Of a stretch of DNA of 20,596 nt, positions 4,450-20,547 are shown in pieces. The position numbers and the translations under genes were made by a program. Position 1 is the stretch's first letter. Every line of letters begins with the position of its first letter. Origin of the DNA: a virus; the IMG/VR virus record IMGVR_UViG_3300042894_005510, positions 1 to 20,596 of that record, one strand, 5' to 3'. A model generated the notes under the pieces. That model made no database searches. It worked only from the letters and a program-made list of their open reading frames with translations, and was not told the DNA's origin.

Positions 4450-5376
4450 CTAGGTAAAAAGGCTGCTGACACTGCGTTCAGTGTGAATACGTTGAATAGC
4501 AAATGCTATTAGCTCACTGACGCTGAGAATGCGAATTTTGTCATGTGGTTGTCCGGAAAACTTGATGCTGTCAGTTACAGTGACACTTTCAATTACACTA
4601 TCACAAAGCCTTGACACTGCTGATCCCGAAAGCACTCCGTGAGTAACATACACACTTACACTAGCTGCCCCTTGGTCTAGCAATGCTTGAGCAGCGTTTA
4701 CCAGGGTGCCACCACTGTCCACAATGTCATCGATCAAAATACAGTCGCGATCTTGAACATGGCCAATTACGTTCATTACCTCGCTTTGCCCGGCACGTTC
4801 GCGCCGCTTGTCAATAATAGCCAGATCGCATGACAATCTACTAGCCAAAGCTCGTGCGCGAACAACGCCTCCCACATCGGGACTGACAACCATGATGTTG
4901 CGATCTTGAAAATTGGTTTTGATATCTCGCGCAAAAAGCGGAGCAGCATATAGATTGTCAACTGGGATATCAAAAAACCCCTGGATTTGTCCAGCATGCA
5001 AATCCATGGTTAGAACTCTATGCGCGCCTGCTTGTGTGATAAGATTGGCAACCAGCTTGGCACTAATGGGAGTTCGGGGGCCACTTTTACGGTCTTGCCG
5101 GGCATACCCAAAATAGGGAATAACGGCAGTTACCCTGCGGCAGCTGGCACGGCGGAGAGCATCCAGAGTAACTAATAATTCCATAAGGTTGTGACTTGCA
5201 GGATAGCTGGTGCTTTGCACCACAAACACATCCTCGCCTCTGATGTTTTCATGGATCTCCACACTAATTTCCCCATCTGCAAAGGCATTAATGCTCGCTT
5301 TGGTTATTTGTGTGTCAAGATGCTTCACTATAGAGTCTGCTAGAGGAACGTTACTATTGCAAGAGATTATTTTCAT
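4450..5376 (-). CDS. prs: ribose-phosphate pyrophosphokinase (PRPP synthetase)
   Basis: A full-length 308-residue class I-like PRPP synthetase (bacterial enzymes are about 315), which transfers pyrophosphate from ATP to ribose 5-phosphate. Visible motifs: DGE at 34-36; [11 protein letters not shown] at 87-97 for ATP binding; [20 protein letters not shown] at 125-144; [16 protein letters not shown] at 163-178; DKRRER at 189-194, the flexible loop with its lysine; and the PRPP loop DDIVDSGGT at 216-224. No key residue appears lost. The start ATG has AAGG six bases upstream. Upstream, TTGACA lies at 5467-5472 but lacks a good -10, so its promoter is uncertain. In phages such genes often accompany NAD salvage (nadV) or nucleotide synthesis; no partner is in the window. 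Two small genes follow in the same transcript. Confidence 0.96.
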
Positions 5377-13197: not shown

Positions 13198-13225
13198 ATT
13201 GTAGCAGAACTCTAGTCAGTGTCAA
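13198..13225 (-). promoter_or_regulatory. sigma70-type promoter in the divergent region
   Basis: TTGACA (13220-13225), 16-bp spacer ending TGC, TACAAT (13198-13203), preceded by AAAAAATGG. It lies only 23 bases from the plus-strand ATG at 13249. Confidence 0.84.
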
Positions 13226-13248
13226 CCATTTTTTCGCGTAAATATCCC

Positions 13249-14076
13249 ATGCGTATAACAGATCTCAATCCCCGGATCCTACGGGAAAGTTTCTCCAACA
13301 TCAGCGTCGAGCAGTTGGGCATCAAAAATCTAGTGGACCAAGCTGATAGCAGTTTGACCGGAGAGGCTGCTGATGCCCTAGAAGGATTTGTAGGTGTGCC
13401 ACCGGATGCCCAAAACAAGGGCATGTGGGGCGGAATCATGAAAAGTGCTCAACTGGAAGATGCATACAGCCCACAGCCAAGTGAGCGGGGCCAACGGATC
13501 CGAGCCAGCCTGGAGCAGAGTTTTAGGCCAGTGCAAGCGGCCTTGCGGCGGAAGTTTGGCGACACCATACGTCTCTATCGAGCTCAAACCTCTGTGGGTG
13601 ACAAAGGTGGTCCCCGGCACACACTCAGCTGGACAAGTGACCCCCGCGTTGCAGCTTGGTTTGCGGGAGTAGATCCCAGGCTCATGAAGGTCAAGCCCAT
13701 AACTGACCAGGCTATTCAACAAGCAGTGCAAGAGTACAACCAAAAGGGCAAAGTCACTTGGAGAGGGAAACGCTACGTGCGCACCGATGAGCCCACTAAT
13801 GACCCTGACCTAGACCCCTATTACTACCACATCTTTGATCAAGATGGTGACATGATAACTGATGGCGACGATTTAGAGGAGCAGTTCCGGGAAGACCAAA
13901 CTTGGATCACCGAGCTGTTGCAAAAGAGAGACCGCAAGCTTGAGAAAGTCCTGCAAGCTGACATACCTGTCGATAGCATCATCTGGATAACCGATCGTGC
14001 AGGCCAAAGCGAGTTCATCCTGCACAACCAGCCCGGGCGCCCGGGATTTGTCACCAGCCTGGGCCAGCTGGGCTAG
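13249..14076 (+). CDS. candidate ADP-ribosyltransferase (R-S-E class, QxE)
   Basis: A 275-residue protein, the only complete plus-strand gene in the window. The C-terminal two thirds carry the R-S-E pattern of arginine-type mono-ADP-ribosyltransferases such as T4 Alt/ModA/ModB: TIRLYRAQ with R111 at 106-113, HTLSWTSDPRVAAWFAG at 124-140 with S127 and S130 in place of the STS motif, and VDSIIWITDR ... GQSEFILH at 241-259, giving Q253-x-E255 of the catalytic loop. A long insertion at about 150-235 (with a D-rich PDLDPYYYHIFDQDGD stretch) separates the second and third motifs. The first 90 residues are helical and unlike the motif region. The start ATG 13249 lacks a clear binding site; GTG 13219 would be ten codons longer but lies in the divergent promoter. 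Such enzymes modify host polymerase or ribosomal proteins, or attach NAD-capped RNA; the target here is unknown. Confidence 0.72.
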   Translation: MRITDLNPRILRESFSNISVEQLGIKNLVDQADSSLTGEAADALEGFVGVPPDAQNKGMWGGIMKSAQLEDAYSPQPSERGQRIRASLEQSFRPVQAALRRKFGDTIRLYRAQTSVGDKGGPRHTLSWTSDPRVAAWFAGVDPRLMKVKPITDQAIQQAVQEYNQKGKVTWRGKRYVRTDEPTNDPDLDPYYYHIFDQDGDMITDGDDLEEQFREDQTWITELLQKRDRKLEKVLQADIPVDSIIWITDRAGQSEFILHNQPGRPGFVTSLGQLG

Positions 14077-14555: not shown

Positions 14556-14584
14556 CTTATAGCATGGGGCTATAGGTATGTCAA
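14556..14584 (-). promoter_or_regulatory. sigma70-type promoter; -35 holds the Thg1 stop codon
   Basis: TTGACA (14579-14584), 17-bp spacer ending TGC, TATAAG (14556-14561). The one class member with a 17-bp spacer. The TGA in the -35 is the stop of 14581-15393. Confidence 0.75.
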
Positions 14585-15393
14585 CTTGTTTTCAGCTCAA
14601 CAGTTGCATTGTGGAAAAGTACATCTGCAAGATTGCTGATGCTGTTTACGGGTGGAAGGTCAAAATCTTGGATCTCGGTTCTGGTGACAAGCTCTGTTGC
14701 ACAGGGCCTGTGTTTTTCAGGAATCATGCCAAGCTCAAGATCGGTTAGTGTTCTCTGCACGTTGGCACGACGGACCCATGTGCCCTGTTTGAAAAATGCA
14801 GGGTATTGTGCCCAGTTCACACCACGGGCATATAGCATTTCGTGTTTGTCACGTCCGTTTTTGTTTTGCAATTCCTGGTGGCTGTAGTAGTGATGGGCAG
14901 CCATGCTTATGCTGTTTTTGGCAGCATCTTGCGCCCGCCACAGCAGCATGTTGGCAGCTTCGGTTTCTGTAGGCATGCTGATGACCCGGCAGTCAAAATG
15001 CGGCAGTTTCAGCACCAGTTCCATCCAATTGGTGAAATAGTTCATCACGTTCTCTATGAAACTGGCAGTGGCCAGGCCAGCCAACACGCTAGTCATCTTC
15101 ATTACCTTGCCGTCAAACCACGCGACGCCATTGGGACCGGGGATCCACACCAAGGAGATTTCATCACTTTGAACATAACCCACAGTGGCATGGGTTTCCT
15201 TCACCAGTGTCTTGGTGGTTTCAATCATGCATCGGCTCATGTGGATGTCGTATGGCCTTTCCATGTCCCGAGTAAACTTACTGAAACCTCTTCCGTCGAT
15301 TCTTGCATAGAGAGGAAGTTGAGGAAGGAACCGCCTACTGGTTTCCTGAGCCTCATAATCCTTCATCCTGTCGCCAAGACTGTCCTTGCTCAT
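14581..15393 (-). CDS. Thg1-like tRNA 5'-end guanylyltransferase/polymerase
   Basis: A 270-residue Thg1/TLP family protein, enzymes that add nucleotides in the 3'-to-5' direction to tRNA 5' ends. Visible: YARIDGRGFSKFT at 29-41 with metal-ligand D33; VGYVQSDEISLVW at 71-83 with D77 and E78; HFDCRVISMPTETEAANML at 132-150; WRAQDAAKNSISMAAHHYYS at 152-171; YARGVNW at 188-194, usual in the family. Length is normal. The start ATG 15391-15393 (MSKDSLGD) has GAGAG just upstream inside the end of the preceding gene; a longer in-frame start overlaps that gene and is not used. Phage members often act as repair enzymes on truncated tRNAs (as bacterial TLPs do) rather than on tRNA-His; which applies here is unknown. 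It follows 15401-15988 in one transcript. Confidence 0.93.
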   Translation of the reverse strand: MSKDSLGDRMKDYEAQETSRRFLPQLPLYARIDGRGFSKFTRDMERPYDIHMSRCMIETTKTLVKETHATVGYVQSDEISLVWIPGPNGVAWFDGKVMKMTSVLAGLATASFIENVMNYFTNWMELVLKLPHFDCRVISMPTETEAANMLLWRAQDAAKNSISMAAHHYYSHQELQNKNGRDKHEMLYARGVNWAQYPAFFKQGTWVRRANVQRTLTDLELGMIPEKHRPCATELVTRTEIQDFDLPPVNSISNLADVLFHNATVELKTS

Positions 15394-15400
15394 GTGACTC

Positions 15401-15988
15401 TCAAACTGGAGTGATGACAGTGGTGCGCACAGTTTCTGTCTGCACATCTGCCCAAATGTATGTGTCGTTCAAGCGATCTTGGTGCAGTTTGGCTGACTTG
15501 CGGTAGTCGCGCTCAACTGCTGCCAGCCTCTTGAGGCGATTGTCTACATATTCCAGCCACTCTTGATTTGGCGCATCAGCTTGCGTCCACCGGGAGAAGT
15601 CTGGGATGCCGACAGGAGGGTCCCAAAAGAAAGGTGGGGCGTTGGGTGGCACAAGCCCTTGGCTCAGCTTTTCTGACACAGTGCGCCAATATTCTTGATC
15701 TAGCCTGATCTCATCAAGATACTTGAGAATATTTTCAAGATCTTTTTTGGTCTGCAACGTCACAAGCTCAATCAAATCTTGGCATTGCTTTGGTGTGAGC
15801 GCAGTTGCATCGAAATCAAGGGCAGGTGCTTGATTGTACCAATGAACCCAAAAAGCCAAAGTGGGATCAAAAGTATTTTTCTCCACAATGGAGCGCACGG
15901 CATCGCCGTACATTTTCACAAACTGTTTGCCCGTTTGGCCCAAGAGTGCTCGACGATTTTGTGTGGACTTTTTCACAATGGTGATCAT
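15401..15988 (-). CDS. phage protein, unknown (195 aa)
   Basis: A 195-residue, mainly helical protein beginning MITIVKKSTQNRRALLGQTG, with a Pro/Phe-rich segment GLVPPNAPPFFWDPPVGIPD at 109-128 and a charged C-terminal helix (DNRLKRLAAVERDYRKSAKL). I do not recognise it. The start ATG 15986-15988 has AAAGGA about nine bases upstream and lies below the promoter at 16010-16037. It precedes the Thg1-like gene by seven bases, so a partner role in tRNA repair is possible by position alone. Confidence 0.7.
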   Translation of the reverse strand: MITIVKKSTQNRRALLGQTGKQFVKMYGDAVRSIVEKNTFDPTLAFWVHWYNQAPALDFDATALTPKQCQDLIELVTLQTKKDLENILKYLDEIRLDQEYWRTVSEKLSQGLVPPNAPPFFWDPPVGIPDFSRWTQADAPNQEWLEYVDNRLKRLAAVERDYRKSAKLHQDRLNDTYIWADVQTETVRTTVITPV

Positions 15989-19335: not shown

Positions 19336-20547
19336 TCACTGGTATTCCGTTGCCTCGCCGTTCTTCACCCGCCTGAGAAGATACGCAGGTGAGATGAACT
19401 TGGCCATGCGTCGTCCATGCAGGGGATGATCCCGGGGCACAAGGCTGCGCACCACTACACCTTCTCGCACGTTGGTGCCACCCACCGTTGTGACACCGTC
19501 TCTCACAGCCTCAATGGCAGTTTGGTCAAAGGGGCCAGTGTAGAGGGTAGGTACACAGGGCAGGTCCCGGCCCCAGTAGGCCACGGCATCTGGGCTAAGC
19601 CATTCACGGCCAATCCGCATGTCAAACACCCGGAACGTGGGCTTAGTGGTGCCGTAGTCGAGGTCCTGAACGCCTTTGCCGAAAACCTCTCCCAAGATAG
19701 CCACCGGATGAGCACCGCCGTCCACCTTGCTCATGCTGTGGAGGAGCCCGGCGAGGTCATGGTCGGCTAGCAGTGTGCCAAGTGCCCGCACATAGAGGTT
19801 GTTGGCGTTGGCTTCGTTGTTCTTGAACACCAGGCCCTGACTGCCCAGCCCCTTGCTGCTGACAGTGATGCTCCTGTAGCCCCCATGGTCGGCGAACATC
19901 TCGGGATGGTCCATGTCTGGGAAGTACTGGATGATACAGCAGGTGCCATGCAGTTTTTCTGTAGCCACCACCACTTCGCCAGGTTCGAAGATGTCTGGCA
20001 CGCTCTCCCAACGCTGAAAATCGTAGGTAAGAGCAGCCTCGGCAACACTTGCCACTTCGCCTGCCATAGCTACAGGCACCGGCGGTTCCCACTTGGTAAT
20101 GCCCAAGATTGCAGCAGCATCCTCGCCTAGCTTGACCGGATATTCAAGACTGTCCTTGCCTACTACATGTACATCCGTCGCCGACCCAAAATCAGCAGAG
20201 AGACAATCGTCATCACCATATGCAATGAGCCCATACAGCACCCCTTCGCTGAAAATACCACGCAGCTTGAGAGGCTTTACACGGTTGCCATCACTGCCTG
20301 CCAGCACACCCTTGTTGGTTTCTGCATTCCAGAACTCCATTTCCTTGAGCAGGTAATCTGGAAGAATAGATGCACTGGGAATGTAGACTACCCAGTCACC
20401 AGTCTTGTAGCGTGGGCTACCGTCCTCCAGCTTGCCGCTGATGCAGGTGTAACCCAGTCCTTCCAGCTTGACGATTGAAAGCCGATCCGCGTTGGGATGG
20501 TTGATAACCTCGGCCACCCGGACCACCGGGCAGGAAAATGTGCTCAT
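19336..20547 (-). CDS. Rnl5-type RNA ligase (DraRnl/DRB0094-like)
   Basis: A 403-residue ATP-dependent RNA ligase of the Deinococcus DRB0094 (Rnl5) type. An N-terminal OB-like domain (VAEVINHPNADRLSIVKLEG at 11-30, YKTGDWVVYIPSASILP at 47-63) precedes the nucleotidyltransferase domain: motif I ATEKLHGTC at 195-203 with adenylated Lys K198, GEVFG at 286-290, FRVFDMR at 305-311, motif IV REGVVVRS at 361-368 with E362, motif V MAKFIS at 381-386 with K383. All expected motifs are present. Family members seal 3'-OH/5'-phosphate nicks in RNA, often on a template. The start ATG has AGGA seven bases upstream, with a promoter at the window's edge. A 3' fragment of a second copy lies at 18821-18919. 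Confidence 0.95.
   Translation of the reverse strand: MSTFSCPVVRVAEVINHPNADRLSIVKLEGLGYTCISGKLEDGSPRYKTGDWVVYIPSASILPDYLLKEMEFWNAETNKGVLAGSDGNRVKPLKLRGIFSEGVLYGLIAYGDDDCLSADFGSATDVHVVGKDSLEYPVKLGEDAAAILGITKWEPPVPVAMAGEVASVAEAALTYDFQRWESVPDIFEPGEVVVATEKLHGTCCIIQYFPDMDHPEMFADHGGYRSITVSSKGLGSQGLVFKNNEANANNLYVRALGTLLADHDLAGLLHSMSKVDGGAHPVAILGEVFGKGVQDLDYGTTKPTFRVFDMRIGREWLSPDAVAYWGRDLPCVPTLYTGPFDQTAIEAVRDGVTTVGGTNVREGVVVRSLVPRDHPLHGRRMAKFISPAYLLRRVKNGEATEYQ

Follow-up and report, generated by a model that had tools for sequence, protein, structure and literature searches.

We analysed a virus fragment of 20,596 nucleotides (20.6 kb), here called the window. Its plus strand carries an uninterrupted open reading frame at positions 13249–14076, whose 275-residue product, P0001, resembles ADP-ribosyltransferases (ARTs). 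As the original prediction had remarked, this is the only complete plus-strand gene; the remaining convincing genes of the window all lie on the minus strand. Those with PHROG matches, at 14581–15447, 189–1079, 4450–5376 and 19336–20547, are, as listed, a tRNA-His guanylyltransferase, a nucleotidyltransferase, a ribose-phosphate pyrophosphokinase and an RNA ligase. A copy 98% identical to P0001 occurs on five IMG/VR contigs of up to 328,603 bp, which makes a jumbo phage the very probable source. The three R-S-E motifs occur in the predicted order and positions, all on the plus strand: R111 in LYRAQ (motif 1; 13579–13581), S127 in SWTSD (motif 2; 13627–13629) and Q253-S254-E255 in GQSEF (motif 3; 14005–14013). 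Motif 2 had been placed at S127 or S130. S127 is invariant among homologues, and S130 was rejected as the motif serine; it is not conserved, being D in the relatives from phages phiM9 and RHph_I1_18, and S127 is therefore taken as the motif-2 residue.

Rhizobium phage RHph_I1_18 encodes a relative of P0001 (EVB91_003; 26% identity, tblastn), as does Sinorhizobium phage phiM9 (gp062, AU106_gp062; 28%); others lie on further IMG/VR contigs, some of whose records reach 435–500 kb. The relatives belong to T4-type jumbo phages. In an alignment of 17 members (21–98% identity to P0001), the columns of R111, S127 and E255 are invariant in all 17, and W128, D131, A139 and G140 are almost so. Judged from this invariance, the R-S-E motif is not a chance resemblance; its conservation in homologues, on which the original prediction depended, was found throughout. 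Neither P0001 nor any of the 17 members gave a hit over cut-off in Pfam, NCBIfam or PHROGs. A PHROG family of unknown function, phrog_4776, matches eight members weakly (best E 2e-4), and no functionally named PHROG family covers P0001. The family profile retrieved no PDB sequence below E 0.5, plasmids gave no match, and no relative was found in bacterial genomes by pattern scan and tblastn. The family appears to be a different one from that of Alt, and undescribed.

Motif 3 varies between subfamilies: it is QSE in that of the window, SKE or CKE in the Rhizobium type, and QQE in one relative (L040). QxE is found in ARTs acting on asparagine or nucleobases. The original prediction took QxE as a hint that P0001 has a target other than arginine, or an RNA/DNA base. 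The suggestion is weak; since position 253 may be Q, S or C, QxE is a subfamily feature, and it was rejected as a firm predictor of the target. The same variability would suit a catalytically altered relative of the ARTs, be it an NADase, an NAD phosphorolase or an inactive structural internal protein, and NAD consumption has been predicted for some phage ARTs (PMC9503650). Nevertheless, the invariance of R, S and E across very diverged members argues against loss of activity, and a phosphorolase of the RES type has Y and N in place of S and E, which the P0001 family does not; on balance, altered chemistry of this kind is improbable.

An AlphaFold model based on the family alignment has a pLDDT of 86.6 and a pTM of 0.76, with residues 1–14 below 50. 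Foldseek gave no significant match to this model in the PDB (best E 0.4). When the Foldseek candidates were re-aligned with VIA-align, the top 15 chains were all R-S-E ADP-ribosyltransferases (Z 5.0–6.0, 127–143 aligned residues, rmsd 4.1–5.6). A Z near 6 is modest by itself; jointly with the invariant triad, it supports an ART fold. Structure prediction, which had been proposed as a check, thus yielded a model that resembles ARTs, and not a fold devoid of the split NAD-binding cleft. Residue conservation and modelled fold together support the assignment of P0001 as an R-S-E ADP-ribosyltransferase.

Motifs 2 and 3 are separated by an unusually long insertion, as had been foreseen; it proved real and family-wide. 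It spans residues of about 142–240 (13672–13968, plus strand) and is present in every subfamily. In the model, its ~95 residues form an alpha-beta unit composed of a helix, a few strands and a long helix. Structural matches ranked after the 15 ARTs cover residues 142–234 only; those to OSCA/TMEM63, immunity proteins and a P1 head protein are too weak to name the fold of the insert. The Rnt1p dsRBD, which appears in the Foldseek list only at E above 2, was likewise set aside for P0001. Lying beside the NAD cleft, the insert would be the likeliest target-recognition element.

Signals upstream of the gene point to late transcription. The sequence TAAATA, the core of T4-type late promoters, lies at 13239–13244 (plus strand), four nucleotides before the ATG of P0001, and would give a nearly leaderless transcript; the original prediction had overlooked it. 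T4 late promoters follow the consensus TATAAATA, whose first T is variable, over positions −13 to −6 relative to the start of transcription (PMC1524935); since CG precedes it, the element before P0001 matches six of eight positions. No Shine-Dalgarno sequence precedes the gene, as the original prediction had noted. Exact TAAATA occurs three times in the window: once within a gene, and four nucleotides before the ATGs of P0001 and of a minus-strand gene at 1341–1913. Because this total is at chance level (3.4 expected), the argument for a late promoter leans on position and on the relatives. Exact TAAATA is found upstream in 11 of the 14 distinct relatives examined, two of which (L038 and L040) have no exact copy upstream. 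The spacing is 4–5 nt in seven lineages (the window, L014, L027, L015, L033, L035 and L037), 23–27 nt in three others and 41 nt in one. In RHph_I1_18, TAAATA lies 28 nt before EVB91_001, the first gene of the operon to which the P0001 relative belongs. Among T4-core genes of four jumbo genomes, TAAATA is near 10 of 19 testable virion genes versus none of 13 replication genes (p about 0.001 in a one-sided Fisher test calculated by hand), and a gp55-type late sigma factor (phrog_234) is encoded in all seven records of P0001 relatives that were searched.

The divergent promoter reported 23 bases from the start of P0001 is indeed there. It is a sigma-70-type early promoter, TTGACA-N16-TACAAT, on the minus strand at 13198–13225; it begins at 13225 and faces the minus-strand genes. 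As these neighbours carry sigma-70-type promoters, P0001 appears as a late island within an early region, a position that alt also has in T4. Late expression, originally a guess, thus gains support from the TAAATA core and from the gp55 homologues in the genomes of relatives.

The N-terminus carries a second signal. Residues 1–13, MRITDLNPRILRE (13249–13287, plus strand), form a predicted capsid-targeting propeptide with a predicted cut between E13 and S14; the assignment draws on the motif, the low pLDDT of this segment and the gp21 homologue in relatives. The cleavage-like motif, which the original prediction had also overlooked, is LRE at residues 11–13. The T4 protease gp21 cleaves behind L/I-X-E, and ten N-terminal residues of IPIII are enough for packaging (PMC9026906). 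A motif of the form [LIFM]xE ending at residues 8–15 is present in 13 of 13 tested family N-termini versus 15–18% of genes in the same genomes, and strict L/I-X-E in 11 of the 13 versus 12–14% of genes; the 13 N-termini are not independent and fall into about six types that cannot be aligned with each other. [LIFM]xE is a short motif, and its background of 15–18% counts against the packaging reading. In RHph_I1_18, the N-terminus of the relative, MISFKSHLNE/S, recurs in slightly altered form in about nine otherwise unrelated proteins. Among these is EVB91_002, encoded next door; its match is to a family of phage protein kinases whose annotation is inhibition of host transcription. A gp21-type protease (PF03420, over cut-off) is encoded in seven of eight records of P0001 relatives and in none of 14 control genomes; gp21 and gp55 genes both occur in every near-full-length relative. 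The window contains neither, and both are taken from the 328-kb relative with the 98% identical copy of P0001. These N-termini and gp21 homologues lend sequence support to the early idea that the enzyme is packaged like T4 Alt.

Two other readings have to be weighed against this evidence. An ART made late that stays unpackaged, and acts in the producing cell on, for example, translation, lysis timing or superinfecting phages, would fit the late promoter taken alone, and T4 ModA and ModB are precedents for unpackaged ARTs of the infected cell (PMC10468400). The genes for ModA and ModB, however, are early; moreover, every tested relative of P0001 has the cleavage-like motif, and the same peptide on about nine otherwise unrelated RHph_I1_18 proteins is what would be expected of a targeting tag. 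This alternative is accordingly unlikely, if the least so of those considered. Much harder to sustain is a role as the toxin in a pair that serves as a toxin-antitoxin (TA) or superinfection-exclusion system, even if some phage ARTs are TA toxins (PMC9503650): no common partner gene was noticed, the neighbours that were looked at differ between phages, and neither a late promoter nor an N-terminal tag is expected for a TA toxin.

Quite probably, then, P0001 is a virion-packaged R-S-E mono-ADP-ribosyltransferase of a T4-superfamily jumbo phage, Alt-like in action. Late in infection, RNA polymerase with a gp55-type sigma factor would start from the TAAATA element, and the mRNA would begin at the ATG or a base or two from it. 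The first 13 residues would take the protein into the prohead core, where a gp21-type protease would cleave after LRE13. The mature enzyme would remain in the head with the DNA, enter the next cell with it, and use NAD+ at once to modify a host macromolecule. Sequence and model support the R-S-E residues, the ART fold, the late promoter core, the cleavage motif and the gp21 and gp55 homologues in relatives; from these we infer packaging, cleavage, injection and catalysis.

The promoter arrangement of P0001 is shared by a wider class of genes. Five phage genomes (G001, G002, G003, G005 and RHph_I1_18; L048–L064, L073–L101, L122–L161) contain 101 genes with TAAATA 3–7 nt before the ATG, versus 1.7 expected from the whole-genome rate. 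The counts (expected numbers in brackets) are 16 (0.24) in G001, 26 (0.48) in G002, 11 (0.39) in G003, 42 (0.39) in G005 and 6 (0.18) in RHph_I1_18; no such gene is found among 169 in T4 (from parts covering most of the genome) or 166 in phiM9. A permuted-hexamer control, which allows for AT-rich upstream regions, gave 0–7 at the same positions, so that the excess is smaller and still clear. Distances, taken to the first ATG of greedy ORFs with gene starts from a crude caller, form two peaks, at 3–7 nt and 18–38 nt, with few between. Only one of the 101 genes has a Shine-Dalgarno-like motif, versus 29–45% of genes overall in these genomes. Under the geometry of T4, transcription from a TAAATA 5 nt upstream would start at the A of the ATG. 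Since TAAATA is so close to the start codon and almost all of these genes have no ribosome-binding site, the sequences imply leaderless late mRNAs; a literature search found no paper that links TATAAATA with leaderless transcripts.

Homologues of the head-completion protein gp4 are among the genes of this class in G001 and G005. Within the class, [LIFM]xE at residues 7–20 is modestly enriched (14 of 49, p 0.04) and [LIF]xE[ASGNK] more strongly (10 of 49, p 0.0002). As the first enrichment is only modest, the leaderless class is not simply a cargo class. A wider proposal, in which our doubts somewhat outweigh our confidence, is that T4-superfamily jumbo phages have a second late mode, with a gp55-type promoter abutting the start codon to give leaderless mRNAs that serve injected head cargo among other late genes. 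P0001 would then be the first member of a cargo family not yet described, with an insert that selects a new target, possibly nucleic acid.

Several further genes of the window and of related genomes deserve mention. The minus-strand gene at 1341–1913 is the only other window gene with the late TAAATA arrangement of P0001 (1918–1923, 4 nt before the ATG). Its 190-residue product, which starts MKLTEITQRILWHSSD, has a 61% identical copy in G001, likewise with TAAATA 4 nt before the ATG. The conserved blocks WHSS, HxGTWAA and NRIESPxSxSYI suggest a second, H-Y-E-like ART; there is no confident family match, and with a model from three sequences reaching a pLDDT of only 38, the class is assigned from sequence alone. 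In G001, a late gene (L058:13885-16104, minus strand) encodes a 739-residue candidate for injected counter-defence; the protein starts MKLFDLLPVVNLSLTEA and combines a DUF6267, a cytidylyltransferase and an Acb1 anti-CBASS domain. The same genome encodes a 1242-residue protein (L051:6833-10561, plus strand; starts MKLVDILENKED) with GNAT and deaminase domains, a weak KptA-like match and no close upstream TAAATA. In RHph_I1_18, a 159-residue protein (L120:8633-9112, minus strand), MISFKQHLNE/STEFLYHGTS, with TAAATA 5 nt before its ATG, is by motif another possible packaged ART. A P0001-type ART domain also occurs within an 813-residue multidomain relative (L032:4083-10707) with repeated PPRPGLVPQSGDWDxPxRWVRP linkers; it adjoins a 1226-residue protein with topoisomerase I, NUDIX and portal-like matches.

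If the packaging reading is correct, the strategy of T4 Alt, in which pre-made enzymes are injected with the DNA, reaches giant phages via an unrelated-looking enzyme family. Hypothetical genes could then be searched for injected effectors by a sequence rule: the core of a late promoter at the start codon, together with a short N-terminal [LIF]xE. Should leaderless late mRNAs from T4-type promoters be confirmed, it would also have to be asked how, late in infection, a T4-type phage gets mRNAs that have no ribosome-binding site translated.

Among known systems, T4 Alt is the nearest in strategy. Both enzymes are ARTs of T4-superfamily phages with a short N-terminal propeptide, predicted for P0001, and a gp21-type site, and alt, too, is an early-strand gene that has a late promoter, TATAAATA, of its own. 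However, there is no significant sequence similarity (hhalign probability 9.5 over 37 columns, essentially the TLYR motif region alone), and Alt is far longer (682 versus 275 residues). Its late promoter lies ~27 nt upstream, and its gene has a ribosome-binding site, whereas that of P0001 is 4 nt from the ATG, without such a site. Motif 3 of T4 Alt is E-x-E, as opposed to Q/S/C-x-E in the P0001 family. ModA and ModB are likewise phage ARTs, but early and unpackaged. In a comparison with ModB only, R111 of P0001 aligns with ModB R73, in an alignment of 15 columns at probability 1.9; R73 is mutated in the inactive R73A/G74A form of ModB (PMC10468400). The best fold matches are C3/VIP2-type actin- or Rho-modifying ART toxins, namely iota Ia (1giq, Z 6.0), CDTa, Certhrax, Vis and C3larvin. 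P0001 differs from these in sequence (10–14% identity), in its extra long insert, and in being encoded by a phage gene that bears signals for head targeting and late expression. A survey of phage ARTs, which includes the Alt/VIP2, N4 and polyvalent-protein classes, had already come to the conclusion that packaging and injection are frequent among ARTs of myoviruses (PMC9503650). There, packaging was argued from head-protein fusions and gene neighbourhood; for P0001, the argument comes from targeting peptides and late promoters. Packaged phage ARTs are therefore already known in principle; the novelty, as far as could be checked, lies in the family, in the evidence from targeting peptides and in the way the promoter is arranged.
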